Source: Methanomassiliicoccales archaeon (GTDB lineage Archaea; Thermoplasmatota; Thermoplasmata; RBG-16-68-12; SOIM01). Taken from it: DNA of 48,650 nucleotides. Position 1 is the stretch's first letter; each line of letters opens with the position of its first letter. Below, piece after piece: positions 15,977 to 44,198 of the stretch. Made by a program: the position numbers and the translations under genes. The stretch lies in assembly GCA_030593885.1 (NCBI GenBank), contig JAUVGH010000015.1, positions 1 to 48,650 of the forward strand, read 5' to 3'. The notes beneath the pieces were generated by a model. The model ran no database searches, was not told where the DNA came from, and saw only the letters and a list, made by a program, of their open reading frames with translations.

Positions 15977-16038
15977 GACCTCCTCTCCTAACCACAGTAA
16001 TGCCACTTACGGGGACTTTCGGGATTGTATCCATTTCA

Positions 16039-16070
16039 GATATAAAAAAATGTTGGAACAACGTTTTGAC
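16039..16070 (-). promoter_or_regulatory. Promoter of the 11957-15976 operon with 18-bp element, copy A
   Basis: In transcription order the 18-bp element GTCAAAACGTTGTTCCAA (16053-16070 on the plus strand as TTGGAACAACGTTTTGAC) is followed by the TATA box TTTTTTTATATC (16039-16050). Transcription would start near 16015, about 40 nt before the ATG. The element sits at the usual place of an activator or repressor site just upstream of BRE/TATA. Confidence 0.65.
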
Positions 16071-16091
16071 TCCATTACACCCAGACCTGGA

Positions 16092-16109
16092 GGCAATAAC
16101 GTTGTTGCC
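16092..16109. other. 18-bp near-perfect palindrome between two promoters
   Basis: GGCAATAACGTTGTTGCC pairs at 8 of 9 positions with no spacer. It lies between element copies A and B. Its form is that of an operator for a dimeric DNA-binding protein. No other copy was noticed in the window. Confidence 0.4.
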
Positions 16110-16156
16110 GTCTAGGGAAAGGATTTCTCTCACCGTTCTTTCAACCGTTCTTGTAA

Positions 16157-16186
16157 TATAATATAAAATTGGAACAATCTTTTGAC
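16157..16186 (-). promoter_or_regulatory. Second, upstream promoter with 18-bp element, copy B
   Basis: GTCAAAAGATTGTTCCAA (plus-strand TTGGAACAATCTTTTGAC at 16169-16186) is followed in transcription order by TTTTATATTATATT. It lies exactly 116 bp upstream of copy A, in the same orientation and with the same element-to-TATA arrangement. The flanks of B do not resemble those of A, which suggests that the element itself is under selection. Confidence 0.6.
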
Positions 16187-16226
16187 CGCGACCCCCTTTT
16201 CCGATGACTTCCCGAGGTCTTCGCCC

Positions 16227-18602
16227 TCACACCTTCTTGCTGAGGTCCTCGTATTCGAGATGGGACCCGTTCTTAGCCACGGAGAGAAGTCCAATCTTCT
16301 GCAGCGACTTGATGTGGTAGTTGACGACCTGCTTGCTGGTTCCCAGTGCCTCGGCGATCTCGGTCTGTGTCAGGTCGGGGCCCTGTCTGATCATCTTCAG
16401 GATGGCCTTCTGGATCATGCTGGCCTTGGTCCTCTTCACCCTGGTCACACCCGCCGGATAGAATCTTTTGTTCCTGCCGTCCACGCGGGAGGCCACGAAG
16501 CCTTCCCTCTCCAAGATGTACAGATGATGAGTCAGTGTGCCGTTCTCCACTCCCATGGCCTTCTTGATAGAGGAGTAGTTCTCCCCTGGATATGCCATTA
16601 TGTAACCGTAGATCTGACCCCTGAGGAACTGGTTGAGCACTTTCTCCTTGTTCAGTTTGGAGTACAGTGGCACCAGGAAGTACAGGAAGAACCGGAACCT
16701 GCCGTATTCGGTGATTCCCGTGAATGCTCCCAGTGCGACAACAACAACTCCCATGGCTCCCAGGATGATCAGTGTGTTATCCACAGGTTCAGGATCCATT
16801 CCCTGCACCCGTATGTAGAATATCTGGACATCTCCGTCTTCACCATCTGTGACGTATATGAATATGAGATTTTGGCCTTCTTGGCCTTCTACCGGGCTCC
16901 AGGTGACCATGCCGGTGTGTTGGTCAATGGCCATTCCAACCGGCGCGTTGACCAGTGAGTGTGACAGAATGTCGTCCTCGTCCGGATCATATGCCTCAGC
17001 GAAGTAGACGTAGTCCTCGCCCACTTTTCCGTGTTCAATCGGGCTTCTGATGAAATATGGCGGGTTGTTGATTACGATCGGGGCTGGGTAGGCAATCCTG
17101 AACCACAGGTTCCCGCTTGCGGTGTTTCCCACGTTGTCTTGAACGATATAACTGACATTGTAATGCTTCTCCTCTGAGAAGGCGATCATGCCAAGATAAT
17201 CTCGGAAGGATCCTCCATCGGACGAGTATCTGAGGCTCTTAACACCTGAGCCAATATCGCTTGCCACCAGCTCCAGTGAAGTTTTCGAGTCGATTGTGAC
17301 AGGATTGCCCCCTTCGCCGCCAGGGTCCAGAGCCATGGAAACGGTCGGTGCTGCTGTGTCCAGAGAAAGGCTCTTGGAGTTCGTCGGTTCCTCGTTGTTG
17401 GCCGGATCGGAGCTGTAGAAGGAGATGGTATTGGCACCTTCTTTTGTCAGATGGAAGGGTGTGTGGTCGTACAGTTCCCAAGCCCCTCCGTCAATCGAGT
17501 ACTTGGTCTGAACGGGTTCTGTCCCTCCTGGTGAGACATCGAACGACAGCTGGGTTGCACCTATGTACATGGGCGCGGTCCCGTGAGTTGGACCCGAGAT
17601 CACCAGTGTCGTCACCGGATCCAGCTGATCTGCGAGAGTCAGATATTCTATCCTGTTGCCATCGATCCATATCTGTCCAACAGTGGCATTCGTATAGCCG
17701 AGCTTCGATGCTTTTATGACATGTGGAGTGAAGTGGGTCCTGTTCTCACCGAAGAACCCAAAGCTGTCCACATACTCGGTGGCAATGAGATGTGAAACCC
17801 CTTCACTGTTGGTAATCCCAGCGTCAGAAGCGGTCCCATTCGCATTGTCCTTCAAAAGAACGTCAGCGGCCTCTACGTCCTCACTTATCGAATTGTCCAC
17901 GTGGACATCCAAGAACCACTGCCTCTCTATGCCAGCGGTCGGATCCCCTATCTTGACCTTCGTATCATTGTAGGTGGTGTTGAGTGCCGTGACCCATGAG
18001 TTACCAGAAACATCGAAATCAAAATACGACATCCCTGAGTATAATGTGCAGTTCTCAAAGACCGGGTCGGAGTCCGAGCCGCTCCTCGAGTCAGCCACCA
18101 CGGCTGTTCTGAGTGCGCTTATCTCCGAGTTGACGAATCGTGGCGAAGATGACGATATCTGAAGACCATTGCGGGACATCATGATCGATACGTGCTCGAG
18201 CACCGATCCCTCGTCCTCAATGAATGCCAGTGACCTCCACAGCTTGTCCATAGATGCAAGCTTCGTCGTGATCAGGATGGGTTCAGCGGACGTTCCATTC
18301 GCGATGATCCTCCCTCTTACGTCGATTCCGAGATTGTCATCGACAAGCACCGTCACGCCTGCTTCGATGTAGAGCGTCTGTGTCGAATTCACTACGAAGT
18401 CCTGTCCGGTAATCTGGATCGGTAGCCCTTTGGCCCAGAATATGTCATTCAATCCTTGGGGGGGTTCGTCCCCGCCAACGGCGAATGGGCTGATGGAAAG
18501 TGCGCTCAATGAGAGTAGAAATGCCCCCAGCAGCGCCGCTGTTGTCAATCTCCTTACTGAGGAGATATCCCCATCTCTACCCTTGCCACAACTGTTTGTC
18601 AT
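16227..18602 (-). CDS. Transmembrane one-component regulator: extracellular beta-helix and Ig domains, TM region, tandem cytoplasmic winged helix-turn-helix
   Basis: 791 aa. The ATG at 18602 is preceded by GAGGT at a fair spacing. Parts: signal peptide about 18-42; right-handed beta-helix-like region about 55-210 (phrases such as 'SSSSPRFVNSEIS'); carboxypeptidase-regulatory-like and two Ig/OmpL47-like domains; cadherin/putative-Ig domain about 510-600 (GMVTWSPVEGQ); hydrophobic TM region about 604-642; then two cytoplasmic winged helix domains. The first (about 652-710) contains 'ENGTLTHHLYILEREGFV' and 'GRNKRFYPAG', the second (about 720-785) 'SKQVVNYHIKSLQKIGLL'. Tandem wHTH domains after 'PLYSKL' are a recurrent architecture of archaeal membrane-bound regulators (family knowledge). 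It would sense something at the cell surface and bind DNA directly. It follows the 18643-22728 gene by 40 bp with no obvious promoter between, so the two are probably one operon. Copy B of the 18-bp element lies 41 bp downstream of its stop codon. Confidence 0.9.
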   Translation of the reverse strand: MTNSCGKGRDGDISSVRRLTTAALLGAFLLSLSALSISPFAVGGDEPPQGLNDIFWAKGLPIQITGQDFVVNSTQTLYIEAGVTVLVDDNLGIDVRGRIIANGTSAEPILITTKLASMDKLWRSLAFIEDEGSVLEHVSIMMSRNGLQISSSSPRFVNSEISALRTAVVADSRSGSDSDPVFENCTLYSGMSYFDFDVSGNSWVTALNTTYNDTKVKIGDPTAGIERQWFLDVHVDNSISEDVEAADVLLKDNANGTASDAGITNSEGVSHLIATEYVDSFGFFGENRTHFTPHVIKASKLGYTNATVGQIWIDGNRIEYLTLADQLDPVTTLVISGPTHGTAPMYIGATQLSFDVSPGGTEPVQTKYSIDGGAWELYDHTPFHLTKEGANTISFYSSDPANNEEPTNSKSLSLDTAAPTVSMALDPGGEGGNPVTIDSKTSLELVASDIGSGVKSLRYSSDGGSFRDYLGMIAFSEEKHYNVSYIVQDNVGNTASGNLWFRIAYPAPIVINNPPYFIRSPIEHGKVGEDYVYFAEAYDPDEDDILSHSLVNAPVGMAIDQHTGMVTWSPVEGQEGQNLIFIYVTDGEDGDVQIFYIRVQGMDPEPVDNTLIILGAMGVVVVALGAFTGITEYGRFRFFLYFLVPLYSKLNKEKVLNQFLRGQIYGYIMAYPGENYSSIKKAMGVENGTLTHHLYILEREGFVASRVDGRNKRFYPAGVTRVKRTKASMIQKAILKMIRQGPDLTQTEIAEALGTSKQVVNYHIKSLQKIGLLSVAKNGSHLEYEDLSKKV

Positions 18603-18642
18603 GATGGCAGACCTCGCCCGCTTCGGATTGAGAGATCCGACC

Positions 18643-21600
18643 TTAACTACCTGGGAGCGACCAAGTTCCTAGCAGTGTCGTGTGCACCCAGATGCCCATC
18701 CCTGGTCTGAGTTCAGTCAATGGGCTGCCACTAGGATCGTTCGGATCGAACCACTTCCAGTGCTGCTTCTTGTCCAGTGGGTCGTACCACAGCACCAGGT
18801 CGTACTTCCCGGCCATTCCGTAATTGTCCAGCGCATCCGGAAGCGGTGTGTTCAGGTGCCTTGGGAAGCCCACGAAGTTCCAGTAATCGGATACAATGTC
18901 GTGGTACAGACTGATGTCGGTCATCGCCGAAACGCGTCCCACGGTCACGAAGTCAACGGTTCCAGCGCTTGGCTCCATGGTGACTCGGAGACCCATCGTA
19001 TGGTCCACGTCAGTCAGCGTTCCTCCGGTCGGGGTCCAGGCCTTCCAGACGCCCATTTGGGCATCGAAGGCCTCGATCTTCTTGAATAAATTCGTCAGCT
19101 GGCTGAACACGACTGATGTGGTGGTGACCTGCAACTCGAACGGTAGTGATATTTCGTTAGCTTTCGGATACAGGGTTATGACGAACTTCCCGGCGGTGTT
19201 CATGTTCATCTCTTCGTTGCCGTTGGAGTCGTACGCCCTGACGATGTAGTAGTAGTTGCTCGGATCAGGAATCCCGGTGTTCGGGTCGATGTACTGGGTG
19301 GTTCCGGCAGGCACTGTGGCCTCTGGAACTCCGAAAGCGAACGTGTCCACACTGTTGGCCTTGTAGATATTGTAGCCTACGAGTCCAGTGGATGGATTCT
19401 CCGTCCAGGTGAGCCTCAGGTCAGCGTCACCGTTCCAAAGCTCGACCCACAGGTTACTGGGAGCCTTGACGCTCGATCTTGCCCAGACCATGGCGTTGTA
19501 GAGCAACTGCTTGTCGTCGGTGTTCGACAGCCTCTCCACGAAGTTCGAGATGTAGACCGTGTTGTAGGTTCCTGGTTCATGTGCAATGACCGCACCATAT
19601 GGTCCAGTCGGGGGGCTCTGTAGCGCTCCGTAGGCTCCGCCGGTGAGGTGCGTGGCGTCCCATGGCTCAGGGCCGGTCATGAAGAAACCAGGTGTAAGTG
19701 ATGTGCCGTTCCTTGTGTTGTAGTTCGTCAGTATATTGTAGAACAGCGGATGGTTCTGTGCCGGGTTCTGGACCTCCATGTCGGTGACTCCATACGTCAC
19801 CATGTACTGAGCGGTCCCGTCCATGCCCATAAGCGATCCTAGCTGAACAGCATGGTTAGGCAGCGTATTCGTGTCGAACGTACCGCCGGTCACTATGAGT
19901 CCGTGTCCGTCGTTGACGAAGTTCTTTATCGCTGTCATCTCAGAGGTCGAGAAGTAATGTCCATCCAACACCGGGTTCTCCCCAGAAGTACCTGAGAACG
20001 AGCTCGATATCAGCAGGACATCAGCGTTCATGTCAACTAGCTCTTGATACTGGATGTTCTCCTTGTTGAAGGTGGTCCAGTCAATGAAGACCGGTGTGGT
20101 TCCATATTGTGCCCAGTTCGTATTGAGATTGGCCCATGGTGCCAGGACACCATTGTCAGTTCCCCAAGAATCGAGGACGAACACCTGAACCGGTGGATTG
20201 TTCCTCGCCTTGACCTCGGTACAGACCTCGTTGTTGCTGAGGTCCTCATCAATGAAGCCATTGATATCCGCCCTCATGCAGACGTTGTCATCGAATTCCG
20301 AGGACGGTGTATACTGAAGTGTCACCTTCTGGGAGCCTCCGGCAGCGGTAAGGAATATTGCTGTTGAATCCTGCTGGACCGTGTTCACCAAGAGTTTGAC
20401 ATCGACGTTTTCGTTGTTCTTACCGATGTTCTTGATGGTGGCTGATACGTTCACCGGATATCCGACTCTCGCATAGTTGGGTGCGATTATGTTCTCCGCC
20501 TTCACATCGTGGTCGAAGACCTGGTATTGGGCGTTGACCATCGCGTTGTACAGGAGCTGGTACACATCGTTGTTCGGTGTCCTCTCTGCCGCGAAGGACA
20601 TCATGTAGACGCCCTTGTTGATCACTATCGCGGCCTCCTGACCAGGCGATCTGGCGCAGTACACGCCAGTGCTGAGGTCGCCGGCTGCCCAACTGGTGTC
20701 GATCGGCGTCATTGTGGAGTTGAAAGGCAAAGTGAACGGATCGCTCACACCTTGGACCAATGGATCACCAGCGCAAGATGTCTCAATGTCCATAGTTGTG
20801 ATTGGCTCGTATCTCACATACGTCTGGTCCGTGATGCCCACGAGGCCTGTCAGATCGTTGTTATTCGGAATGTTTTCATTGAACACGGTGCCAGTGAGGA
20901 TTAGCCCATGTCCTTCCAGGGTGTACTGCTCGATCGCTGCCGTTTCCACATCCGTGAACTGGCCGCCCGGAGGAGTAACTCCATCTATGTGGCCTGCAGA
21001 GCTTGAGATCACAAGTGTGTCAGGCTTGGGAGACTGGCCTGATATGGTCGCATAATCGATCCCCGACATATCCAGGCTGGAATAGTCAATGATGACCTGA
21101 TCGCTTCCGAAAGAGAGCCAGTTGGCGTTGAGATGATTCCATGTATCTTTGGCTGCCTGGGTCGATGTTCCCTGTGATCGTACTACATAGATGTAATGCG
21201 CTGGAACGGAGCTAACCGTGACCACCCTGCAATCCTTATTGTTCCAGAGTTCTGTCTCTCCGGACACTGGATCTGCTACCATACACACCCAGTGGATGCC
21301 CAGGATCGTTGCCGCCCAGGTAAGCTGATGAATCACATTACTCCCGCTCAGGATGGACGGAATGTTGCCTGTGTCAACAGTTGAGTTGTCAACAGTCAAT
21401 CTTGTGCCAATGTTGGTCTCATCACTCGAGCCTATATTGTTATATTGCGCCGAGACGATGAGTGGGTTCCCTGGGGGAGAGACGACAGGGAGCGCATCGT
21501 TATTGTTAACGTGTATGTCGTGTGCCAATAACTTCCCGTAGACCACAAGGTCATCAACGAACCATCCTAGCCAATTGGCGTTGTTCATAGTATCGACCGT

Positions 21601-22728
21601 GTCGAACCTCAATTCCAGCTGAACACTGCTGCCAGCATATGCCGATAGGTTCACCGTTTCCTTCCACCAGCTTGAGTCGGTCGAGTCCCAGCCGTCTGGG
21701 TATGGCGTGATCTTATGCCACGTTCCATCGTTCAAGAACATGTGGCCGTTGTCTACCTTGTAAAGTCCCGTATCAGGCTCTCCAGCCAGCAAGTGACGGA
21801 AGGTCACAGCCAGACTGCTTCCGGTGGTGGCATCGATATTGGGGGTCGTCAGATTGCCCATGTTCCGCGTGGATGCGAACAGGTCGCCTGTCATATTAGT
21901 GTAATAGTTGCAGAAATAATCTCCGAACCAAAGATGCCTGCGGCCGTACCACCATCCGGTGGTTGGGCTCTGGTAGAACGGTTGATCGAACATGTTGTTC
22001 ATGCAGTCCTCCTCTCCAGAGCTCAGGTGCCAGAGACCCTCAGGCTCATACAAGTGTCCCTTGTCCCATCCTTCTCGCGACCATCCACCCATCCCGGATT
22101 CCATATCATCACTGAAGAAGATATGTAGTACCTCAACAGTGCTGCTCAATCCAGAATCTCCATTGATGCTCGTCGCATCCGTGGTCATGGTGTCAAGGCT
22201 GATGTTTATGGTGCTTCCCTCGATTGCCGATGCCGAGATCGAAACGAAGACCATTATGTATCGTGTCTGGAACTGGGGTATGATGTAGTTCCCAAAAGGT
22301 GAATTACAGTTGTTCAGGCTGCCCGCGGTCGGAAGTGTGAAGAATCCCGTCGGATTCGTGATCCTGGCCAGCTCACACTCATAGTAACCCTGCAGTTTGT
22401 CAGGCCCCACTATGCCGTTGGAATCGTCCCACAGCACAACACTCGAGACCTCACCTGCCCCGAACGTTCCTCCCAAGGTGAAATCCAATGAACTCACCCT
22501 GACATCACCGCCCGTCGGCATCATCTCTATCCACAGCATCGTCACGTTCGCGTCGCCGGGGAAAGTATGAGTTGACGGTGCGATGTCGTATACCCTTACG
22601 TCCAAATCTCCTGCCGTCGGCGGAGCCACCACAATCATCGGTGCCAAAACAATAACCGCCGCGATCATCATCGAGGTCAAAGCTGCCAATGACCCCACGT
22701 CTTTCATGCCTTCAGAAGCACTTTCCAT
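18643..22728 (-). CDS. Secreted surface protein with MAM-like, CARDB and two LNTNW-type GATase1-like domains
   Basis: 1361 aa, a full-length paralogue of 11957-15976 and 23249-27292. The ATG at 22728 follows GGAGGAGG. Parts: signal peptide about 15-40; N-terminal beta domain; MAM-like domain 204-394; CARDB 403-501; GATase1-like domain 511-734 (HLNANWLSFG); CARDB 740-838; second GATase1-like domain 846-1083 (NLNTNWAQYG); FN3 1089-1176; C-terminal domain 1180-1361 with 'WKWFDPNDPSGSP', ending 'GTWSLPGS'. Conserved cysteines in the MAM-like region (for example 'EEDCMNN') are also present in 23249 and 30763 and may form disulfides. It is first in an operon with the transmembrane regulator, which makes it a candidate partner or ligand-presenting protein for that sensor (inference from order only). 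Confidence 0.9.
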   Translation of the reverse strand: MESASEGMKDVGSLAALTSMMIAAVIVLAPMIVVAPPTAGDLDVRVYDIAPSTHTFPGDANVTMLWIEMMPTGGDVRVSSLDFTLGGTFGAGEVSSVVLWDDSNGIVGPDKLQGYYECELARITNPTGFFTLPTAGSLNNCNSPFGNYIIPQFQTRYIMVFVSISASAIEGSTINISLDTMTTDATSINGDSGLSSTVEVLHIFFSDDMESGMGGWSREGWDKGHLYEPEGLWHLSSGEEDCMNNMFDQPFYQSPTTGWWYGRRHLWFGDYFCNYYTNMTGDLFASTRNMGNLTTPNIDATTGSSLAVTFRHLLAGEPDTGLYKVDNGHMFLNDGTWHKITPYPDGWDSTDSSWWKETVNLSAYAGSSVQLELRFDTVDTMNNANWLGWFVDDLVVYGKLLAHDIHVNNNDALPVVSPPGNPLIVSAQYNNIGSSDETNIGTRLTVDNSTVDTGNIPSILSGSNVIHQLTWAATILGIHWVCMVADPVSGETELWNNKDCRVVTVSSVPAHYIYVVRSQGTSTQAAKDTWNHLNANWLSFGSDQVIIDYSSLDMSGIDYATISGQSPKPDTLVISSSAGHIDGVTPPGGQFTDVETAAIEQYTLEGHGLILTGTVFNENIPNNNDLTGLVGITDQTYVRYEPITTMDIETSCAGDPLVQGVSDPFTLPFNSTMTPIDTSWAAGDLSTGVYCARSPGQEAAIVINKGVYMMSFAAERTPNNDVYQLLYNAMVNAQYQVFDHDVKAENIIAPNYARVGYPVNVSATIKNIGKNNENVDVKLLVNTVQQDSTAIFLTAAGGSQKVTLQYTPSSEFDDNVCMRADINGFIDEDLSNNEVCTEVKARNNPPVQVFVLDSWGTDNGVLAPWANLNTNWAQYGTTPVFIDWTTFNKENIQYQELVDMNADVLLISSSFSGTSGENPVLDGHYFSTSEMTAIKNFVNDGHGLIVTGGTFDTNTLPNHAVQLGSLMGMDGTAQYMVTYGVTDMEVQNPAQNHPLFYNILTNYNTRNGTSLTPGFFMTGPEPWDATHLTGGAYGALQSPPTGPYGAVIAHEPGTYNTVYISNFVERLSNTDDKQLLYNAMVWARSSVKAPSNLWVELWNGDADLRLTWTENPSTGLVGYNIYKANSVDTFAFGVPEATVPAGTTQYIDPNTGIPDPSNYYYIVRAYDSNGNEEMNMNTAGKFVITLYPKANEISLPFELQVTTTSVVFSQLTNLFKKIEAFDAQMGVWKAWTPTGGTLTDVDHTMGLRVTMEPSAGTVDFVTVGRVSAMTDISLYHDIVSDYWNFVGFPRHLNTPLPDALDNYGMAGKYDLVLWYDPLDKKQHWKWFDPNDPSGSPLTELRPGMGIWVHTTLLGTWSLPGS

Positions 22729-22800
22729 GCTAGCCTCCTCCTTGTCCAGTTCAACAAACGGTCTGGTTCATCTTAGACGAATTCAGTATATTAAGATATT

Positions 22801-22833
22801 CACTATAAAAGAATATTGGAACAACCCTTTGAC
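22801..22833 (-). promoter_or_regulatory. Promoter of the 18643-22728/regulator operon with 18-bp element, copy C
   Basis: GTCAAAGGGTTGTTCCAA (plus-strand TTGGAACAACCCTTTGAC at 22816-22833) is followed in transcription order by TATTCTTTTATAGTG, giving a TATA box near 22801-22809 and a leader of about 50 nt. The sequence beyond the element also resembles that beyond copy A (TCCA... followed by CTGGAGGC / TTGGAGGC). Part of the A-C similarity may therefore come from duplication of the whole promoter region. Confidence 0.65.
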
Positions 22834-22888: not shown

Positions 22889-22901
22889 ACACCCGACAGG
22901 C

Positions 22902-22909
22902 GTTATATA
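22902..22909 (+). promoter_or_regulatory. TATA box of the plus-strand 105-aa gene
   Basis: GTTATATA lies about 26-30 bp upstream of the ATG at 22935, so the transcript would be leaderless or nearly so. This spacing decides the start codon: the upstream in-frame TTG (22851) and ATG (22878) precede the TATA box. Confidence 0.6.
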
Positions 22910-22934: not shown

Positions 22935-23252
22935 ATGGAGACTTCGGAACGTATAGTCCTATTTCGTGCCGTACCTTTCACCTCCGCGTTCAACGACGCT
23001 CTCAGGATACTCAAGAGCAACGACCTGACCATCGCCGAGTGTGACCCCGATAAGGGATTGATCAAGGCCAATGTAGACGAGAGCATGCCGCTCGAGGATT
23101 ATCAGATCGTTGCGAAGTTCTGGAAGGGCAAGGACAGGATTCTGATCGGGTTGAGAGGTAGCGTCTCGTTCAGCTTTTCCGGAGCGGAGAAGCTCGAGAA
23201 GAAGCTGAAGAGGCTGGAGACCGACTTCAGGCGGTTGGATTACGCCTATTAG
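22935..23252 (+). CDS. Small protein of unknown function, 105 aa
   Basis: Not recognised. The predicted pattern is alpha/beta: a helix in 'FTSAFNDALRILKSN', a strand pair with 'CDPDKGLIKANV', two more strands ('QIVAKFWKGK', 'RILIGLRGSV'), then a charged C-terminal helix with many Lys and Glu. There is no signal peptide, TM helix or metal-binding cluster, so it is cytosolic. It is divergent from the 18643 operon across a 206-bp region rich in palindromes. Its stop codon overlaps that of the convergent 23249 gene by 4 bp. The start at METSER rather than the ORF-track start follows from the TATA position. A role in controlling the divergent operon is possible but unsupported. Confidence 0.75.
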   Translation: METSERIVLFRAVPFTSAFNDALRILKSNDLTIAECDPDKGLIKANVDESMPLEDYQIVAKFWKGKDRILIGLRGSVSFSFSGAEKLEKKLKRLETDFRRLDYAY

Positions 23253-26200
23253 TCTCCCCTAACATCCCAGAACCCTGGTTGGGTAACGTGTATCCAGATG
23301 CCCATTCCCGGCCTCAGTTCCGTCAGTGGTGAACCGCTTGGATCGTTGAGGTCGAACCATTTCCATTTCTGTTTCTTGTCGGATGCATCGTACCAAAGCA
23401 CGAGGTCGTACTTCCCGGCCATTCCCCAGTTGTCCAGTGCCCCTGGCAATGATCTTGTCTCGAATGATGGATATCCCACGAAGTTCCAGCTGTCGCAGGC
23501 GATATCGGATGTGATCTCAATGCTTGTGAAGACGACCCTTCCCACGTTTATGAGCAGTCCTGTGGATCTCATGTTCACCTTCAGTCCCATGTTCCTGTGT
23601 ATCTGAGTTAGAGCGCCGCCGGTGGGCGTCCATGCTTTCCAAGTGCACGTGAACGGGTCGAACGCTTCGATGGTCTTGTACTGTCCATCAACGGACTCGA
23701 ACGCCACCGATGTGGTGCTGTCCTTGAGCTCGAAGCCAATGGATATCTCGTTGCTGCCTTTGTACAACTGCTGCGCGAACTTCCCGACCCTGTTCAGGTT
23801 CTGCTCTTCGTTTCCCTTGCCGTCGAATGCTCTAACGAGGTAGAAGTAGCTGTTCGCGTTTATGCCCACAGCCTCTGGATCGACCCATATATTGGTTGTG
23901 TTGTCCACGGTCGCGTAGACGTTGTTGAAATCGAAACCGTTCACCGTTGCCGCCCTGTAGATCCGGTAACCTTCGATCTTCGGAGATGTGGCCAAGGTCC
24001 ATTCCAGCCTTACAGTGTTACCATCTTTGTATATCCACAGATTCGATGGCGAGTCAATGCTTGTCCTGCCCCAGACCATCGCGTTATAGAGCAGCTGCTT
24101 GTCGACCACGTTGGAGCTCCTTTCCACGAAGTTGGTGATGTAGACTGAGTTGTATGCACCCGGCTCATATGCGATGACCGCGGCGTTGTCGGTCTGAATG
24201 GACATCGCTTTGTATTGTCCGCCTGCAAGTTGACCTGCCGTCCAGTTCTCCGCCCCTGTCATGAAGAAGCCAGGTGTCAACGTGGTCCCGTCCGAGGTCG
24301 TGTACGTGTCCGAGATCTTATTGAACAATGGGTGGTTCTGCTGTGGATTAAGGACCTGAAGGTTGTTGATTCCAGTCAAGAATGTGTATGTGTTAGTTGG
24401 ATTAAGTCCGAACAGCGGACCGAGATCGACCCCGTGCTTGGGGATCTTGTCAGTGTCGAACGTCAGGCCGGTCGCTATGATGCCGTGCCCTTCCTGAACA
24501 TATCGGATTATCGCATCGACCTCATTGTCCGTGAAGTAGTATCCTGCCAGAACCGGGTTGTCCATGTCCCCTGACCTGGAGCTCGATATCAAGAGAACGT
24601 CGGCGTAGGAGTCGACCAGTTCCTGGTAGTAGATGCTCTCCTTGTTGAACCTGGTGTAGTCTATGAAGACCGGCACGTTTCCGTACAGGTTCCAGTTCGT
24701 GTTGAGGTGATCCCATGGAGCAAGTGCTCCGAAGTCCGTTCCCCACGAGTCCAGAACGTATATCTGAACGGGCGGATTGTTGGTGGCTTCCACTGACATA
24801 CAGTCTTCGTTGTTTGCAGGATCCTGGTCCGTGAAACCGACGATATCGGCGAAGACGCATACCTGATGAATGCCAACTGTAGATGGTACCCAAGTGAAGT
24901 TGACAAATGCCTGGTCCGCATGCAGAAGCGGTATTACCTGCGTGTCAACCGGCGTTCCGTCGATCCTGAGGTCAACCTGAACAGAGGCAAGGTCCTTCTT
25001 GCCGATGTTCGCGACCACTGAACTGATCCTGGCTGGATAGGAAGGTCTCACGAATCTGTTCGAGTTGATGTCCGAGACCTTCACATCGTAGTCGAACGCT
25101 TGATATCGAGACCATACGAAGGTGTTGTAGATGAGCTGGATTTCCGCAGGCGTTGGCGATGCGTCAATTGCGAAGGTGAAATACACGGATCCCTTGAATA
25201 TCGTGATTGCTGAATATCGCTGTCCAGGTGAGTGTGCGCAGTATTGAGCGCCGTCGAGGTCGTCGGTGTCCCAAGACATATCATTATTGGGAGTTGCAGT
25301 CTGCTCGAAACCGTTCTGGAAGACGCCGGGAACGTTGTTGAATATCGGATGAGATGTGCATGTGCCGAGCACCTCGACGTCCGAGATGTTCCCCTTTGTT
25401 GTGAAAGGCTGGTCCTTTAATCCGACCAGACCCACCAAATCGTTGTTGTTGGGCACTAGCTGGTTGAATGCCGAACCTATCGCGACGAAACCGTGGCCTT
25501 CTCTTACATACCTCGCTATGGCCGCCGTTTCCACATCGTCCAATTCAGTTCCGAATGGAGGTCTGAAGTAGAAGCCAGAACCCGAGAGTACCAGCAGGTC
25601 GGCCTGAGTGTTGTTTATCATTTCATAGGTGATTGGATAAAGATCCAACGATACGTAGTCGATCAGAACCGGGTCGGACCCATAGTCGCCCCAGTTCGTG
25701 TTAAGGTGGCTCCACAACGCCTTGGGCCCGTCTGCCTGGGTTCCATATGATCTGAGAATGAGTATCTTCGTGTAAGTCTGAGAAGTTGCCGTCACCATAT
25801 TACACTGTTTGTTGTTCCAGAGAACGCTCTCACCCGGTACGGCGGCGCTTTCCACGCATATCTCGTAGGTTCCTTCCGCCGGCGGAGTCCATTGCATGGT
25901 AGCATTCGTAGTGGCGCCGCTGGCCAGGAATGATATGGTCTTTTGGTCCACCAATGACCCATCCTGGGTAAGATTAACCCTGATGTTGCTCTCATCGCTG
26001 GCCCCTATGTTGGATACTCTGGCCGTGATGTTCTGTAGCGTGAGCGTGACGTAGTCGGCCACACTCAGGTCAGTGACTGCAATGTCATGATCAAGAATCT
26101 CGCCATAGATTACGAGATCATCTATGAACCACCCCAGGAAGAGGTTATTCATAGCGTCCATCGTATCGAACCTGAATTCGAGCTGTACCTGCTTTCCAGC

Positions 26201-27292
26201 ATAGTCTGACAGATTGAGATTGAGCTTCTTCCACTGATCGTCCGTGAAGTTCTGCTTTGATATGAAGTGCAAACCTGCACCATCATTGAGATACACCTGG
26301 GCAAGGTCGAAACCCTGGGACGGCTCCCTGGAAAGGAACTGCCATATGGTCATTGATAGACTGGTCCCTTTTCGTGCATCGATCCACGGCGTGGTCAGGG
26401 TCCCCCAGTTTCGCGTTGGTGTGAGCGGTTTCCCAGTTTCATATGTATAGTAATTGCAGACATAATCTCCGAACCAAAGATATCTGTGGCCGTACCACCA
26501 CGACGTTCTGGCGGTGTGGTAGAACGGCATTCCCCTGACGTTGTTTATGCAGTCTTCCTCATTCGTGCTGAGATGCCACAGGCCAGTGGGATAGACTCCT
26601 CCCAAGTCCCCACCGGAGAACGTCCAGCCGCCTGGACCGTGTTCCATGTCGTCGAAGAAGAACCTCCTGTTGATATCTATCGTCCTGGAACAAGCTGGTA
26701 GTCCAATTACGGTCGCAGCCGAGCTGTCAATCCCACCATTAGGCACGCAAACCCGCAGGTCCCTGTCAGTGTACCTCTGCAAAGGATCGAAGTCCAGGTC
26801 CAAGTACACAATGAAGGCTCGGGATCTGTTCTGTTCTATCACCACTGGCTGTCCTATCAGGGGACCACTGCACTCTCTCATGACGCCGGACGGCGGGAGA
26901 ACATAAGGACCACTGGCATCCTCAGCGATTATGCACTCACCGTAGCTTCTATCCCTGTCAGCATTGTTGTCGCTCCACAGGAAGGTGCGGTTGATACCCT
27001 GGCTTGGAATGCCCCAGGTATCCACCTTAATGCTGTCCAAATTGATGTCCGCGCCCTCAGCCTTCAAGGAAAGCCATACCATGGACAGGTTGACATCACC
27101 TTGGAATGTGTTCGTCAACGGGGCCAGGTTCTCCCAAGTCACGTTCAATGTTCCGGCTGCCGGTGGCGCCTTGACGGTACTTCCTTCATATGGAAACAAG
27201 GATACGATGGATCCAGTTACCATCGCTACCGCCAGAATGAATGATACCGATTTCGATAGGCCACGCCCACTCAGGCTATCGTGATGCGACAT
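23249..27292 (-). CDS. Secreted surface protein with MAM-like, CARDB and two LNTNW-type GATase1-like domains
   Basis: 1347 aa. The start is set at the ATG at 27292, behind GAGGAGG and directly before a signal peptide (GLSKSVSFILAVAMVTGSIVS). The 17-codon upstream extension is rejected. Same order as its two paralogues: N-terminal beta domain; MAM-like domain about 209-397; CARDB 404-497; GATase1-like domain 507-729 (HLNTNWGDYG); CARDB 734-836; second GATase1-like domain 842-1076 (HLNTNWNLYG); FN3 1080-1167; C-terminal domain ending 'GFWDVRGD'. It has its own promoter without the 18-bp element, so it may be controlled differently from the other two. No catalytic residues were recognised. The stop codon overlaps that of the convergent small gene. 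Confidence 0.9.
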   Translation of the reverse strand: MSHHDSLSGRGLSKSVSFILAVAMVTGSIVSLFPYEGSTVKAPPAAGTLNVTWENLAPLTNTFQGDVNLSMVWLSLKAEGADINLDSIKVDTWGIPSQGINRTFLWSDNNADRDRSYGECIIAEDASGPYVLPPSGVMRECSGPLIGQPVVIEQNRSRAFIVYLDLDFDPLQRYTDRDLRVCVPNGGIDSSAATVIGLPACSRTIDINRRFFFDDMEHGPGGWTFSGGDLGGVYPTGLWHLSTNEEDCINNVRGMPFYHTARTSWWYGHRYLWFGDYVCNYYTYETGKPLTPTRNWGTLTTPWIDARKGTSLSMTIWQFLSREPSQGFDLAQVYLNDGAGLHFISKQNFTDDQWKKLNLNLSDYAGKQVQLEFRFDTMDAMNNLFLGWFIDDLVIYGEILDHDIAVTDLSVADYVTLTLQNITARVSNIGASDESNIRVNLTQDGSLVDQKTISFLASGATTNATMQWTPPAEGTYEICVESAAVPGESVLWNNKQCNMVTATSQTYTKILILRSYGTQADGPKALWSHLNTNWGDYGSDPVLIDYVSLDLYPITYEMINNTQADLLVLSGSGFYFRPPFGTELDDVETAAIARYVREGHGFVAIGSAFNQLVPNNNDLVGLVGLKDQPFTTKGNISDVEVLGTCTSHPIFNNVPGVFQNGFEQTATPNNDMSWDTDDLDGAQYCAHSPGQRYSAITIFKGSVYFTFAIDASPTPAEIQLIYNTFVWSRYQAFDYDVKVSDINSNRFVRPSYPARISSVVANIGKKDLASVQVDLRIDGTPVDTQVIPLLHADQAFVNFTWVPSTVGIHQVCVFADIVGFTDQDPANNEDCMSVEATNNPPVQIYVLDSWGTDFGALAPWDHLNTNWNLYGNVPVFIDYTRFNKESIYYQELVDSYADVLLISSSRSGDMDNPVLAGYYFTDNEVDAIIRYVQEGHGIIATGLTFDTDKIPKHGVDLGPLFGLNPTNTYTFLTGINNLQVLNPQQNHPLFNKISDTYTTSDGTTLTPGFFMTGAENWTAGQLAGGQYKAMSIQTDNAAVIAYEPGAYNSVYITNFVERSSNVVDKQLLYNAMVWGRTSIDSPSNLWIYKDGNTVRLEWTLATSPKIEGYRIYRAATVNGFDFNNVYATVDNTTNIWVDPEAVGINANSYFYLVRAFDGKGNEEQNLNRVGKFAQQLYKGSNEISIGFELKDSTTSVAFESVDGQYKTIEAFDPFTCTWKAWTPTGGALTQIHRNMGLKVNMRSTGLLINVGRVVFTSIEITSDIACDSWNFVGYPSFETRSLPGALDNWGMAGKYDLVLWYDASDKKQKWKWFDLNDPSGSPLTELRPGMGIWIHVTQPGFWDVRGD

Positions 27293-27375
27293 AATAACCT
27301 CCTCGTTTCGTTTGGTTTTCTCCCCCGATGCCCCTTTCATCAAGAAAGGTAACTTACTGTGATTAGATTGGTCTG

Positions 27376-27419: not shown

Positions 27420-27870
27420 AATGGCTCTTGCTTTTTGTATGCTTCTTGACGCCTTCCCCTCTCCTTGCGGCGGCTCCCATTGTCACAAGCGCGAATATCA
27501 AGAGAATCACATTCACTATCAGGCCGATCGAGAACCAGTTGTCGAGGTCCGGGACGCTGATCGAGCTCGGATGGTTCATCCAGGAGAATATGGCTATTAT
27601 CATCTCAATTATCACGAACGGGACCGCGATGAGGACGGCTGTGGACCTTCTGTCTGATGCCAGCGCCTTCAGTTTTGCGGACGGGAGATACCTCTTACAT
27701 CTTGGGCATTTCTCTTCACTGTGCTCGCAAGCCTCGTGCAGTTCGACACCGCACCAGCCGCAGCCGATCGTCTTCTGATCGGCGGCGATCTCGGAGTTGC
27801 AGATCGGACATGCTTCCAGAGGTTCTTCCATCATCCCGACCTCCTCTTCCACGTATGTATCCTCCTCCAT
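27415..27870 (-). CDS. C4HC3 (RINGv/PHD-like) zinc-finger protein with two TM helices
   Basis: 151 aa. An acidic N-terminus is followed by C21-x2-C24-x12-C37-x2-C40-x4-H45-x2-C48-x6-C55-x2-C58, the C4HC3 order of RINGv/PHD cross-brace fingers. Two TM helices follow (about 77-98 and 112-135) and a short basic tail. Both ends should face the cytoplasm. The layout of an N-terminal RINGv plus two TM helices is that of eukaryotic MARCH-type membrane E3 ligases, but no ubiquitin-like or E2 gene is present here and spacing is shorter than in known E3s. A membrane zinc-finger adaptor is the safer reading. The start ATG overlaps the stop of the upstream gene (TGATG), which indicates translational coupling to the acidic-tail surface protein 27870-30680. 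Confidence 0.85.
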   Translation of the reverse strand: MEEDTYVEEEVGMMEEPLEACPICNSEIAADQKTIGCGWCGVELHEACEHSEEKCPRCKRYLPSAKLKALASDRRSTAVLIAVPFVIIEMIIAIFSWMNHPSSISVPDLDNWFSIGLIVNVILLIFALVTMGAAARRGEGVKKHTKSKSHS

Positions 27871-30680
27871 CAGACCACCCTCCTGTCCGAAAGGTCGATT
27901 ATGCCGTCTGCACCAGTCTCCTCTTCCTCTACGACCTCTTCCTCCAGCTCCTCAACTTCTTCGGGTGGCTCTTCTGCGACCTCTTCCGCCTCTTCATACT
28001 CCTCAACTTCGTCCAGAGGCTCTTCTATGTATTCTTCATATTCCTCTTCTTCAGGTTCACTATCCAATTCGGCTTCTTCCTCCTTCTTGAGAAGTGCCTC
28101 CTCGTACTCTCTCTGCTTCTTCCTTGCCATTATCAGAGGTCTCTTATGGCCAACGGCCGCTCCTACTATTATCATGATGATGATGAAGATTATCGCAAAG
28201 ATGGGTTTGTAGTTGGGCCCGAGAACAAAGACCTCCTGCTCATGTTCCTGTTCTGTGTTCCCGAGGTTGTCAACGCTCCTGAAGTATATGGTGTGCTCTC
28301 CGAATCTCTCGATTGTGAAGGGTCCGACATAGTGTATCCACTGAAGGTCATCATCCAGCCTGTACTGTCTTGCGTTGACGTCGCAACCTTCATCCGTTGC
28401 CGACAGGGTGATCTCACTGGTCTTCTCTATGAACAGCGTCCCATCTCTCTCAAAGCTCGGGTCCCCCAGCACTATTGATGTCGTCGGAGGCGTATCATCC
28501 ACGACAACCGTGATCATCTGGACGGTCTCATCGTTGCCAAGACGGTCCACCGAATACCACTCTATCTGTCTCGAACCATCTGTTGCTCCAAGGTCGATGG
28601 GATTGCCTGGGATGAAATCCGTCCAAGCTCGCCAGACAATGTTGAAGACCCGGTATGCAGTTCGTTCCCTACCAACGGCCAGAGTCGGCTCATCGTCCCT
28701 CGTCCAGTTCAAGTAGATTGATGTGATTGCCGTGTTGCTCCTGACCCAGGTGGTCCCCGCAGACGTGAACTTCCGTCCGAATATGTTCAGCGCCGTGATA
28801 GGTGGTGAGTTGTCCACGATGATGGCCTGAGCATGTGTCTGCTCCGTGTTTCCAAGGCTGTCAACGCTGTAGAATGTGAGATCATGCAGTCCCTCTGAAG
28901 ATATCGTGAAGGTCCCTGTCGAAGAGTAGTTTACTGAAGCTCCACCGTCCAAGGAGTAATGGGTGTAGGATGTGATCGAAGACTGGACATCGAAGTCGAG
29001 CGAGGTGGACGAAGTGATGTACAGGGTCGTTCCGTTGACGTAGTTGGGGGTTCCATAGACCAGAGTTGTGACAGGTCCAGGGAAGACGTTGAATTGTATC
29101 ACAAGCGTGTTGTTGAGTTCGTTCGACTCAGCAATATCTCCATCGTAGTCTACCTCTATGATAACGAAATATGTGGTCACTACGGTGACAATGGGTGCAA
29201 TCCATGTCGCGGAATATTGGACGGCCGAGGTCAGACCAGCGCCGATAGCTACGACATTGTCAGTCCCGAACGGGTTCATAGGATCCGTCTGATTGTAGAA
29301 TGCTATCGTGCTGTCTGCAAGCGCATCGAGAAGATCGACGTTGCTGACAAACACATCGATTGGTATGGAGGTTCCGGATGTCACATCTTGGACCAATGGA
29401 AGTGCCGGATTCCAGGGAATGTAGTCAGGGTATCCCACCAGGAATATCAGTATGAATGTGTTGTTCAGTTCGCTGATCTCGACCACGTCACCGTTGTAGT
29501 CGGCGGTGATGTTCACGTAGTAGTTCCCCGGGATCGCCGGCGCAACCCAAGGCACCGAGAAAGGACCATCATCGACCCCTGGGTTCAATGCGCTGACCAT
29601 GGGGATGTAGAATGGTATCCCGGAGATAGGTCCACCTTCTCCGGTCGTGTTGTAGAACGCCAGATCGCTGGCAACCGAAGAGAGCGTCCCAACGTTGGTC
29701 ACATTGGTCACTATGAAGGCCGTTGTTCCGGGGGTCATCGGTATCGGACTCGACCTGTAATTGGTCGCAGACACATCCAGATAGAACTGTGGGCCGTAGT
29801 TGGTGGTTATCCCAACCCCGGTTGGAGTGAGGTCAGCCTCTCCTACCGAGAAACAGACCATTTCAGAATTGTTGTTCTCATTGGTCTCGGTCACATTGTC
29901 GTTATAGTCCACGGTAATGTTGAAGCAGAAGTACCCGCTTGCCGGGGCGTTCCAGGTGAAGATGTATGGCCCCGAGGAAGTGCTTGAGTTGACGTAGATG
30001 GCGGTGTCCTGTCCCAGCACTCCAGATTGGTTCCGCAAGACGATTGTGTTCGGTTCGGCGATGTCTGTCTTTCCCACATTCGTGACGAACGCGGAGAAGG
30101 TTACGGTGGTGAACGGAGTGACTGCCATGGGCGGAGAATAGGGTTGGCCGTTGAGCTCAATGCTGGTGGGAATCAGATCCACGTTGGAACACATCACGTC
30201 CCATTGCTGCGAGTTGTTGAGACCTCCCCCTGTAAGCCAGTTTATCTCGTTGTTGTATGAGCCCCTGACAGAGAACTCACCCGGTGAGCCCGTCCCGTTG
30301 CTCGTCGCGTTCTCGGCCATGTCCCCCGAAGGTGTGCAGTCTATCTGGATCCTGTATTGGTCTGCATCGCTCCAGTTGATCTCCTTCTGGTCCCACGGAA
30401 GGGTGTAGGAATAGAAGCCGCCCATCGTGCCGACAGGGTCCCAGGTGGTGTTCGAAGGGAAGCCTTGCCATGTGCTGTTATGTTGTACCCATACCCTGAA
30501 GTCAGTGTCGTAAGGGAGAAGAAGCCCATCACTGTCGAATATCTTGCCCCAGAGGTATTGATCGTCGTCGGCGGCCATGACGTTTTCTGTTAGATACAAT
30601 GAGAACGCGAGTGCAAACATGCCCAAGACCATAAGCATCGCAGCTGTCTTCTTTCTCACCGCTTTGGACGGTCTGTGCAT
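27870..30680 (-). CDS. Membrane-anchored surface protein: N-terminal DDDQY domain, three CARDB, three OmpL47-like domains, TM helix and acidic tail
   Basis: 936 aa. The ATG at 30680 follows GAGGAGGAG. Parts: signal peptide about 10-36; a domain starting 'ADDDQYLWGKIFDSDG' that is shared closely with 30763-33840; CARDB domains, each with '(D/N)E.NN' near the end; three OmpL47/Ig-like domains (repeated '(F/W)YSVD(S/R)LGN'); TM helix about 822-846; then a cytoplasmic tail of 90 residues, mostly Glu, after a short basic KKQ stretch. The acid tail resembles that of 8127-11933 in composition. It is cotranscribed with the C4HC3 finger protein, which suggests that the cytoplasmic tail and the finger protein work together at the membrane (inference). 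Function unknown. Confidence 0.9.
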   Translation of the reverse strand: MHRPSKAVRKKTAAMLMVLGMFALAFSLYLTENVMAADDDQYLWGKIFDSDGLLLPYDTDFRVWVQHNSTWQGFPSNTTWDPVGTMGGFYSYTLPWDQKEINWSDADQYRIQIDCTPSGDMAENATSNGTGSPGEFSVRGSYNNEINWLTGGGLNNSQQWDVMCSNVDLIPTSIELNGQPYSPPMAVTPFTTVTFSAFVTNVGKTDIAEPNTIVLRNQSGVLGQDTAIYVNSSTSSGPYIFTWNAPASGYFCFNITVDYNDNVTETNENNNSEMVCFSVGEADLTPTGVGITTNYGPQFYLDVSATNYRSSPIPMTPGTTAFIVTNVTNVGTLSSVASDLAFYNTTGEGGPISGIPFYIPMVSALNPGVDDGPFSVPWVAPAIPGNYYVNITADYNGDVVEISELNNTFILIFLVGYPDYIPWNPALPLVQDVTSGTSIPIDVFVSNVDLLDALADSTIAFYNQTDPMNPFGTDNVVAIGAGLTSAVQYSATWIAPIVTVVTTYFVIIEVDYDGDIAESNELNNTLVIQFNVFPGPVTTLVYGTPNYVNGTTLYITSSTSLDFDVQSSITSYTHYSLDGGASVNYSSTGTFTISSEGLHDLTFYSVDSLGNTEQTHAQAIIVDNSPPITALNIFGRKFTSAGTTWVRSNTAITSIYLNWTRDDEPTLAVGRERTAYRVFNIVWRAWTDFIPGNPIDLGATDGSRQIEWYSVDRLGNDETVQMITVVVDDTPPTTSIVLGDPSFERDGTLFIEKTSEITLSATDEGCDVNARQYRLDDDLQWIHYVGPFTIERFGEHTIYFRSVDNLGNTEQEHEQEVFVLGPNYKPIFAIIFIIIMIIVGAAVGHKRPLIMARKKQREYEEALLKKEEEAELDSEPEEEEYEEYIEEPLDEVEEYEEAEEVAEEPPEEVEELEEEVVEEEETGADGIIDLSDRRVV

Positions 30681-39066: not shown

Positions 39067-40284
39067 CTATTCTTCAACGCCAAGCTCTTTCTGGAAACTA
39101 CTCCACTTGTCTTCCAGATTCGGATCTTGAATCGTTTCCATAACGTATTCGGAGATTTCTTGTGCGGTAGCTCCATCTGGCCTTCCAGTCGTCTCTATCC
39201 TCTTCTCGAATGTGAAGCATACGTCCAACGCCTTCTCCAACTCGGCCGCCTTTTCCTCGTGACCGATGTGCCCCAGAAGCATGACCACCGCTCTCATCAT
39301 GCTCTGCGGATTGGCGTACTGAGCCCTCCCTTCGTCCACCATTCTCGGTGCGGACCCGTGGATCGCCTCGAACATTGCGTATCGCTTGCCGATGTTTGCA
39401 GCGCCAGCGGTGCCCACTCCACCCTGGATCTGAGCCGCCTCATCGGTGATTATGTCCCCGTACAGGTTGGGGAGCACGACAACCTTGAACTGTTTCCTTC
39501 GCGCAGGGTCGATCAGCTTTGCCGTCATAATATCAATGTACCAGTCATCCCACTCGACATCCGGATATCTCCCTGCGACCTTCCTGGCGATGTCCAAGAA
39601 CTTGCCGTCCGTGGTCTTTATCACATTGGCCTTGGTGACGACCGTGACCCTGTTGATACCGTGTTTCTTTGCGTGCTCGAATGCCAGCTCGATTATCCTC
39701 TCCGAACCTTGGTTGGTGGTGACCGTGAAATCGAATGCCAGGTCGTCTGTAACAGCCACCCCCTTGCTGCCCATGATGTAAGCGCCCTCCGTGTTCTCCC
39801 TGAAGAAAATCCAATCGATTCCCTGATCCGGAATCTTCACCGGCCTCACATTCGCGAAGAGGTCCAGCTCACGTCTCATGGCAACATTGGCGCTCTCGAT
39901 GTTTGGCCAATCGTCGCCCTTTTGGGGCGTGGTCGTAGGTCCTTTCAAGATCACGTGACAGCTCTTCAACGCCTCCAGAACATCGTCTGGTATCGCCTTC
40001 CCGACCTTCACACGGTCCTCTATTGTCAACCCTTCGATGGTCCTGATCTGGACCTTCCCATCCATGGTATCTTCCTTGAGCTGGAATTCCAAAACCCCTC
40101 TGGCTTCGTCGCAGATTATGGGTCCAATACCGTCTCCTCCCACGACCCCTATTATGATGGGTTTGATGCCCTCATAATCCACCCAGTCCTCGGCATGGTT
40201 CAGTTCCTCCACCCTTGACATTTGCTCTTGTATGATCCCTCTGAAATGTTCCAGGGCTCTATCAACGGGGTCCTTTCCATCCAT
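39067..40284 (-). CDS. icd: Isocitrate dehydrogenase (isocitrate/isopropylmalate dehydrogenase family)
   Basis: 405 aa, a usual family length. It oxidises isocitrate to 2-oxoglutarate and CO2 in the cytosol. Seen: 'SANVAMRRELDL' matches the phosphate/substrate loop S-x-N-x-x-x-R of isocitrate dehydrogenases rather than the isopropylmalate type; 'RENTEGAY' and 'TKANVIKTTDG' give the catalytic Tyr and Lys; 'NLYGDIITDEAA' gives the metal-binding Asp pair. The cofactor loop reads 'HGSAPRMVDEGRAQYANP', with Arg-Met where NADP enzymes of the E. coli type have Lys-Tyr and NAD enzymes an Asp, so cofactor choice cannot be read with confidence. It is last of a four-gene operon, 4 bp after the aconitase stop. 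The upstream ribosome-binding site is weak, so translation is probably coupled. Confidence 0.92.
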   Translation of the reverse strand: MDGKDPVDRALEHFRGIIQEQMSRVEELNHAEDWVDYEGIKPIIIGVVGGDGIGPIICDEARGVLEFQLKEDTMDGKVQIRTIEGLTIEDRVKVGKAIPDDVLEALKSCHVILKGPTTTPQKGDDWPNIESANVAMRRELDLFANVRPVKIPDQGIDWIFFRENTEGAYIMGSKGVAVTDDLAFDFTVTTNQGSERIIELAFEHAKKHGINRVTVVTKANVIKTTDGKFLDIARKVAGRYPDVEWDDWYIDIMTAKLIDPARRKQFKVVVLPNLYGDIITDEAAQIQGGVGTAGAANIGKRYAMFEAIHGSAPRMVDEGRAQYANPQSMMRAVVMLLGHIGHEEKAAELEKALDVCFTFEKRIETTGRPDGATAQEISEYVMETIQDPNLEDKWSSFQKELGVEE

Positions 40285-40288
40285 GCGA

Positions 40289-43030: not shown

Positions 43031-43066
43031 CTCCGAACCTATCTCACCCACCTCCCAGTGTGAGCC

Positions 43067-44161
43067 TCAAGACGTCTTGGCGCGAGGTCTTATCAACCTG
43101 TTGTCAGCATACTGCTCGAGAACGTGTGCGATCCATCCCGAGACCCTTCCGATGGCGAACATCGCGGTTGCAAGGGTCTCCGGTATTTCTATATATTTGT
43201 ATGTGACCGCGGAGTAGAAGTCCAGGTTTGGATAGATCGGTTTCTCCCGTTTCTCCACCAATTCGCGCTGGACAGTAGCTTCAATTATCTCTGCGATCTC
43301 GAACCATTTCGGATCCCCGTGATCTGCCAGCCTCTTTGCTAGTTTCTTGTATATTCTGTCTCTTGGATCGTGGGTCTTGTAGACTCTGTGGCCGAATCCC
43401 ATCACCTTCTCCTTCTTGGAGATCAAGTTCAATACGTGATCCTCGGCGTTCTCCGGTGAGGAGATATCATCCAGCATTTCCATTACGCACATCCGGGCTC
43501 CGGCGTGAAGCGGGCCTTTCAGGGTGCTGAGACCCGAGATGACTGTGGAGTGGATGTCGGCCAGCGTGGATGCGGTTACCCTCGCGGAAAAAGTGGATGC
43601 GTTCAGTTCATGTTCGGCGGAGAGCACGAAGTCTTTGTCCACTATCTCTGCCTCGAGTTCTCCCGGCTTCTTGCCCTTCAGCATGTACAGGAAGTTCTCT
43701 CCGTGTGACATGGATGCATCAGGCTCGATTACATCCAGATCATCTCTTACCCTGTGGAAAGCGGCAACCACCGTCGGGAACTTGGCTATCAGACCCGTGG
43801 CCTTGCGCAGGTTCGATTCAAGGGAGCTGTCTCCCAGATCTGGGTCGCAGTGGGACATGTACGAGACCGCTGTTCGGAGCGCGTCCATGGCCTGTATGTT
43901 GAAATCGCATGTTGTGAGCACATCTAATATGTCCTGGTCTATCTTCCTCGAACCTCTCAGTTGATCTGAGAAGGCCGCGAGCTCACTCTCATTGGGGAGC
44001 TTCTCGTACAACAGCAAGTGTGTCACCGCTTCAAAGGAATACTCCACCAGATCGTTGATGTCAGTTCCCCTGTATTTCAGAATCCCATTCTCTCCATCTA
44101 TGGAAGAGATCTTCGTTTCCAGAACTTCGACACCCTCTAGCCCCTTCTTCAATTCACCCAT
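43067..44161 (-). CDS. gltA: Citrate synthase
   Basis: 364 aa, the short archaeal/Gram-positive type. It condenses oxaloacetate and acetyl-CoA to citrate. Seen: 'GILKYRGTDINDL' near the N-terminus; 'SAEHELNAST' with the first catalytic His near 184; 'KGPLHAGARM' with the second His near 219; 'GFGHRVYKTHDPR' near 256; 'NLDFYSAV' with the catalytic Asp near 315. The second His loop is unusual: most family members have GGAN or GGAA where this has AGAR. The start is placed at the second ATG (MGELKKGLEG), which has GGAAGGTGA upstream and the usual family N-terminus. The ORF-track ATG at 44182 is seven codons longer with a poorer site. It lies 37 bp downstream of the rubredoxin-FMN gene. Confidence 0.94.
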   Translation of the reverse strand: MGELKKGLEGVEVLETKISSIDGENGILKYRGTDINDLVEYSFEAVTHLLLYEKLPNESELAAFSDQLRGSRKIDQDILDVLTTCDFNIQAMDALRTAVSYMSHCDPDLGDSSLESNLRKATGLIAKFPTVVAAFHRVRDDLDVIEPDASMSHGENFLYMLKGKKPGELEAEIVDKDFVLSAEHELNASTFSARVTASTLADIHSTVISGLSTLKGPLHAGARMCVMEMLDDISSPENAEDHVLNLISKKEKVMGFGHRVYKTHDPRDRIYKKLAKRLADHGDPKWFEIAEIIEATVQRELVEKREKPIYPNLDFYSAVTYKYIEIPETLATAMFAIGRVSGWIAHVLEQYADNRLIRPRAKTS

Positions 44162-44198
44162 CTTCTCACCTTCCTGACTCATTGACCCTATTCGTTCT

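Follow-up and report, generated by a model that had tools for sequence, protein, structure and literature searches.

A conserved bipartite element upstream of TATA boxes in a probable archaeal surface-protein regulon and its candidate membrane-anchored tandem winged-helix regulator

The window, that is the whole stretch of 48,650 nucleotides that was analysed, comes from a Thermoplasmata-like MAG, and the locus described here is carried by the records JAGLME01, SOIM01 and CP070767. Analysis of the minus strand revealed two operons, as the first-pass annotation had proposed, P0002 and P0001 being separated by 40 bp and P0003 and P0004 by 23 bp (Table 1). P0002 and P0003 are distant paralogues with about 40% identity, while P0004 has a weak LTD-like domain, a C-terminal TM segment, an acidic tail and a zinc ribbon. 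For P0003 the ATG at 15976, which follows GGAGAGGAGG, is a likelier start than the GTG at 16006. The divergent 105-aa gene adjoins element C and is apparently leaderless; it may be controlled together with the P0002 operon, and does not necessarily belong to the regulon described below.

Table 1. Genes, domains and element copies of the locus, with window coordinates.
Feature	Position	Strand	Description
P0001, candidate regulator	16227..18602	-	791 aa; N-terminal signal, ectodomain, TM, two winged helices
P0001 tandem wHTH	16275..16622	-	Pfam matches, residues 661-776
P0002	18643..22728	-	Predicted surface protein, 1361 aa, CARDB domains; first gene of the operon of promoter C
P0003	11957..16006	-	CARDB surface protein, about 1340 aa
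P0004	8127..11933	-	Predicted surface protein, 1268 aa; second gene of the operon of promoters A and B
Divergent gene	22935..23252	+	105 aa; own TATA at about 22901-22908; copy C 68 bp upstream of that TATA
Element copy A	16053..16070	-	GTCAAAACGTTGTTCCAA; TATA 16041-16044 (box about 16040-16047); promoter of the 15976/11957-8127 operon
Element copy B	16169..16186	-	GTCAAAAGATTGTTCCAA; TATA 16157-16160; additional promoter, 116 bp upstream of A
Element copy C	22816..22833	-	GTCAAAGGGTTGTTCCAA; TATA 22804-22807; promoter of the surface protein/regulator operon

The ectodomain of P0001 contains an OmpL47-type domain (residues 438-495) and an Ig-like domain (527-599), and is followed by a TM segment at about 611-633, read from the sequence as a hydrophobic segment and present as a helix in the structure model. 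The winged helices differ in type, the first (661-724) being of the HVO_0163-N type with a score below the cut-off of that family, and the second (730-776) of the MarR/ArsR type. The AlphaFold2 model of residues 601-791 showed the TM helix and then two wHTH units, with a mean pLDDT of 80.6, and a fold search of the PDB returned generic wHTH relatives only (ESCRT-II, TFIIIC, SelB, ArsR/MarR). Strong OmpL47-type domains, the domain type of the P0001 ectodomain, were also identified in a 936-aa protein encoded at 27870-30680.

A search of the window with the 18-mer recovered the three copies exactly where the first-pass annotation had placed them, with the minus-strand consensus GTCAAANNNTTGTTCCAA; no fourth match was found in the window at up to three mismatches (shuffle expectation 0.38), nor was any weaker site detected there. 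The element is non-palindromic and bipartite, reading GTCAAA-NNN-TTGTTCCAA on the minus strand with its two parts about 11 bp apart, and is followed by 8 T-rich nucleotides and then TATA. The adjacency to the TATA box noted earlier was right and can be sharpened, since the gap is fixed at 8 nt in all 16 aligned sites from four genomes; copy B, too, has its TATA at the same distance as the other copies. The conserved unit amounts to 36 nt, the element continuing into the conserved T-rich stretch and the TATA. In the whole-genome scan that had been suggested, only the three window copies matched the consensus at 0-1 mismatches in the 2.14-Mb assembly and one site matched at two, while up to three mismatches gave 14 matches versus 16 with the reversed-pattern control. 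The element is almost certainly a functional promoter element.

The locus is kept in four of the five genomes of the family that were analysed, namely the window genome G000 and G001, G003 and G004, in which P0001 is 75%, 53% and 51% identical, respectively, to the window protein. The order in G001 and G003 is that of the window, element C-P0002-P0001-element B-element A-P0003-P0004, whereas in G004 P0001, B, A and P0003 are present and P0002 is a 3' fragment (L149 5318-6295); another P0002 relative with a C-type promoter was observed at G004 C1:1945131. The arrangement of surface protein, regulator and double element is conserved down to 51-53% regulator identity, and the regulator gene lies downstream of a candidate site across species, the element preceding P0002-P0001 in G000, G001 and G003. 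The 18-mer of copy A is identical in G001, G003 and G004, and the distance from A to B is 116 bp in the window and G001, which belong to one genus, and 121 bp in G003 and G004, which belong to the other. Alignment of the four intergenic regions revealed the strongest conservation in the elements and TATA boxes, and further conserved stretches between B and A. This interval (16072-16152) is partly conserved in the four genomes as GGTGAGAG..ATCCTTCCC..ACAACGT..GGCTCC, which would fit a conserved leader transcribed from promoter B.

Orthologues of P0001 were found in four of 37 genomes of the order, all within the family that has the regulon. Their tandem wHTH regions are 68-87% identical, compared with 51-75% for the whole protein, and recognition helix 1 is unchanged in all four. 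The fifth family genome, G002, carries one element before a P0002 relative; no P0001 orthologue was detected in it, and when the adjoining 20 kb of the window, which holds TCA-cycle genes among others, was used as the query against it, no orthologous stretch was found. Because the whole locus is missing from that MAG, the lack of P0001 is uninformative rather than contrary, and G002 was set aside as a counter-example. The TCA-type cluster of the window (39067-45494; isocitrate/isopropylmalate-type dehydrogenase, aconitase and citrate synthase), not found in the G002 assembly, adjoins a rubredoxin-fused FMN-dependent lactate-dehydrogenase-like protein.

The 37 genomes were scanned with a profile built from the element and its TATA, and the regulon was counted in the five family genomes at E<=0.05. 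Of the 24 sites, 19 lie in front of genes whose products are predicted to be secreted or surface proteins ("secreted" being judged by eye from a hydrophobic N-terminus), comprising 16 relatives of P0002/P0003 (CARDB) and three unrelated proteins, at G001 C28:266588 (498 aa) and at C28:325608 and C27:139679 (paralogous, 536 aa). The remaining five are four tandem B copies and one site (G003 C42) without an ORF behind it. Weaker sites were also located before secreted proteins in G003 C44 (384 aa) and G001 C38 (1061 aa), while several P0002 relatives, including that at 23249-27343 of the window, have no site. The profile search indicated that the regulon occurs only in this family, where the sites very probably form a surface-protein regulon.

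P0001 is one of about seven related transmembrane tandem-wHTH regulators per genome, and most of the others have a different conserved block of their own at the same place before the TATA box, the variants of the sister groups being recognised by eye on alignments. The 1090-aa paralogue has ATATTGANNNTCGCTCCAATNTTTATTTATA, found a single time in each family genome, ahead of its own gene, as well as in family f4, with none in the controls; in G011 a second site of this type precedes another gene. The 755-aa paralogue has ATTAGAAG..CG.ACCA, once per family genome and before that regulator only, and a related ATTCGA..ACCA precedes its orthologues in four other families; this element was searched by pattern, the calibrated profile (R2) holding too little information. 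The 633/849/866/1078/818 clade (tree support 100/99) has TATARAAG..GAACAA-like blocks in common, and the groups 484, 343 and 1456 have further variants, while no variant was recognised by eye on the alignments of group 742. A second regulator's own element, ATATTGANNNTCGCTCCAAT-TATA at L142 4758-4788 (G000 C29:34257-34287), is conserved in two families. At about position 1501 of L108, L117, L122 and L123 (family f4) there is a conserved, non-coding-looking TGTACCAATAAGTTTATATATTATACAAAACGCCGTACAAATCTGCTTTTATAT with two successive motif-TATA units, possibly the promoter of an RNA gene.

Outside the family, genome G005 carries the exact P0001-type 18-mer ahead of a gene for a 524-aa membrane tandem-wHTH protein, at 38 nt from its start codon, with the TATA 6 nt after the element, 2 nt nearer than in the family, and a weaker CTCCAAT-TATA site before a second gene of this kind. 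The phylogenetic tree places the G005 regulator on a long branch as a divergent family member, and it was ruled out as an orthologue of P0001. Since the 18-mer there precedes a divergent paralogue, another family member could be the binder in that genome; the G005 sites tie the motif to the regulator family and also warn that a different member may bind it. The pattern YTCCAAY-N6-TTATA, common to the P0001- and 1090-type sites, gave 20 matches in about 12 Mb versus 4 in the reversed control, and 17 of the 20 are P0001- or 1090-type sites, the other three (G001 C38, and the orthologous pair G001 C31 and G002 C43) preceding other secreted-protein genes. With N5 spacing the same pattern gave 5 matches versus 4 in the controls, which is background. 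A general BRE or promoter feature was rejected, the N6-spaced pattern being nearly confined to these promoters.

In one syntenic region the zones before the TATA were compared between orthologous genes, most gene pairs going unscored as a TATA was not found in both. The two regulators ranked near the top in conservation (20 and 16-17 of 22), and values were also high for two membrane proteins, one with a zinc ribbon (18 of 22) and one of small size (15-18). A conserved pre-TATA block alone is therefore not special to regulators. Co-variation between half-sites and recognition helices was significant with 11 groups and was mostly lost with one representative per clade, when only helix 2 versus the left half was kept (r=0.44, nominal p=0.028); it was dropped as evidence, the signal being mostly gone once related groups were removed.

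Judged from these sequence comparisons, it is reasonably probable that the element is an upstream activating site of the secreted and surface-protein regulon and that P0001, being encoded inside that regulon, acts on it and on its own gene, and P0001 is with similar confidence the candidate binder of the element. Of the autoregulated surface-protein regulon first proposed, the regulon is well supported by the relatives, while a role of the element as operator of P0001, and autoregulation, are suggested indirectly by the linkage in four of five genomes, the similar phyletic range and the paralogues' own elements. The ectodomain, from signal peptide to TM helix, would read the state of the envelope or the surroundings, and the two winged helices may bind GTCAAA and TTGTTCCAA, whose spacing is close to one helical turn, on one face of the DNA. 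Bound beside a T-rich, weak-looking BRE at 8 nt from the TATA, P0001 would recruit TFB/TBP and switch on P0002-P0001 and P0003-P0004, and with its own gene in the regulon it would control itself. By comparison, the family appears to have expanded by paralogy into sister regulators with diverged elements in the same layout before their own genes, and since the sisters are preceded by their own elements, autoregulation is probably ancestral. Tentatively, the order may hold a whole paralogous family of membrane-anchored tandem-wHTH proteins, each reading its own bipartite element at a single fixed position before the TATA of its own gene, with P0001 extended to a surface-protein regulon. If so, elements and recognition helices together would constitute a natural recognition code, in a membrane-to-promoter circuit for envelope composition.

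That the copies are instead functionless relics of gene and promoter duplication could be argued from the paralogy of P0002 and P0003 and from the many sites that precede relatives of these two. The related flanks that had been ascribed to copies A and C were not confirmed: ungapped flank identity is at most 42% upstream and 50% downstream, and the proteins behind them are distant paralogues (40%). Information content over 15 sites, almost every one from a separate locus, is 1.2 bits per position in the element versus 0.18 in the upstream 70 nt and 0.26 on the downstream side, and shared flanks are rare among pairs of sites. Since the element is an island of information within unrelated flanks, duplication does not explain it and was rejected as the origin of the copies. 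Most element positions are invariant while the flanks are unrelated, unrelated secreted proteins are preceded by sites as well, and no surface-protein ORF lies directly behind copy B, all of which makes relics highly improbable; as read from these alignments, the conservation of the element is selection on the site and not leftover duplication.

It is unlikely, though a more serious alternative, that the regulon site is real and has another binder (a soluble regulator, another of the transmembrane wHTH paralogues, or an alternative TFB that prefers a BRE of its own), with P0001 as a target only. The number of related regulators per genome, the exact 18-mer before a different family member in G005, and the right half of the element, which resembles that of the sister elements and abuts the BRE, speak for such a binder. 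Against it, most of the other paralogues open to examination have genes preceded by conserved elements of a different kind, P0001 is the member embedded in the regulon in four genomes, and three sites genome-wide are far too few for a general BRE, the N6-spaced pattern being almost confined to these promoters. If P0001 is the binder, activation is fairly probable and is a better guess than repression because of the activator-type position and the T-rich BRE stretch. A repressor that hinders TFB beside the BRE until an envelope signal releases it seems rather doubtful; the 3' end of the element lies within a few bp of the BRE, and wHTH proteins of the MarR/ArsR type often repress their own genes, both of which count in its favour. 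Against it, the site is upstream of the TATA and start, not over them. The characterised archaeal regulators bound at such a position are mostly activators (PMC5512572). The BRE stretch here is T-rich and probably weak, which also fits a repressor poorly.

To our knowledge, little is known of envelope regulation in archaea. The element is probably the docking site of a membrane-spanning regulator from the same operon, by which the surface coat could be adjusted from the membrane itself. Few membrane-bound regulators of archaea have been studied by experiment and have known sites, ArnR/ArnR1 being the case found, and the present locus offers a specific candidate regulator-element pair in uncultured archaea, with several sister pairs as a source for a DNA-recognition code of membrane-bound wHTH proteins. 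No description of this regulator family or of the element was found in searches of open-access full texts.

Known archaeal activators occupy sites upstream of BRE/TATA, from which they recruit TFB or TBP, in many cases where the BRE is weak (PMC5512572; PMC6737238 for Tar; PMC13286277 for CsmR). A site directly upstream of BRE/TATA, as in activators of the EarA/Tar/Ptr2 type, was observed here in 16 of 16 aligned sites. EarA (Methanococcus, Pyrococcus), CsmR (Haloferax) and Tar/TK0271 (Thermococcus) share this position in the available accounts, and EarA and CsmR also act on surface appendage genes, with TFB recruitment proposed for both; unlike P0001, all three are described there as DNA-binding proteins without membrane anchor and ectodomain, and their motifs are different. 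With wHTH matches at 661-776 and a TM segment at about 611-633, P0001 falls within the definition of the transmembrane transcription regulators (TTRs), which combine a DNA-binding domain and a TM segment in one polypeptide (PMC10269533). The available part of that census gives an archaeal mean of four per genome, versus about seven here, and does not give target sites for archaeal TTRs, whereas a candidate regulon and paralogue-specific elements are given here.

The nearest case by role is ArnR/ArnR1 of Sulfolobus acidocaldarius (PMC6396743), which are likewise membrane-bound HTH one-component regulators of surface-structure genes with cis elements upstream of BRE/TATA. In ArnR the HTH is N-terminal, with a HAMP/sensor part and two C-terminal TM helices, while P0001 has a large N-terminal ectodomain, one TM segment and a C-terminal tandem wHTH. 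The ArnR boxes are an inverted repeat, TCGAC-N5-GTCGA, in contrast to the non-palindromic bipartite GTCAAANNNTTGTTCCAA with its fixed spacing and its regulator inside the regulon. The reversed domain order, the TM number and the motif rule out P0001 as a member of the ArnR family; P0001 is ArnR-like in role, not in architecture.
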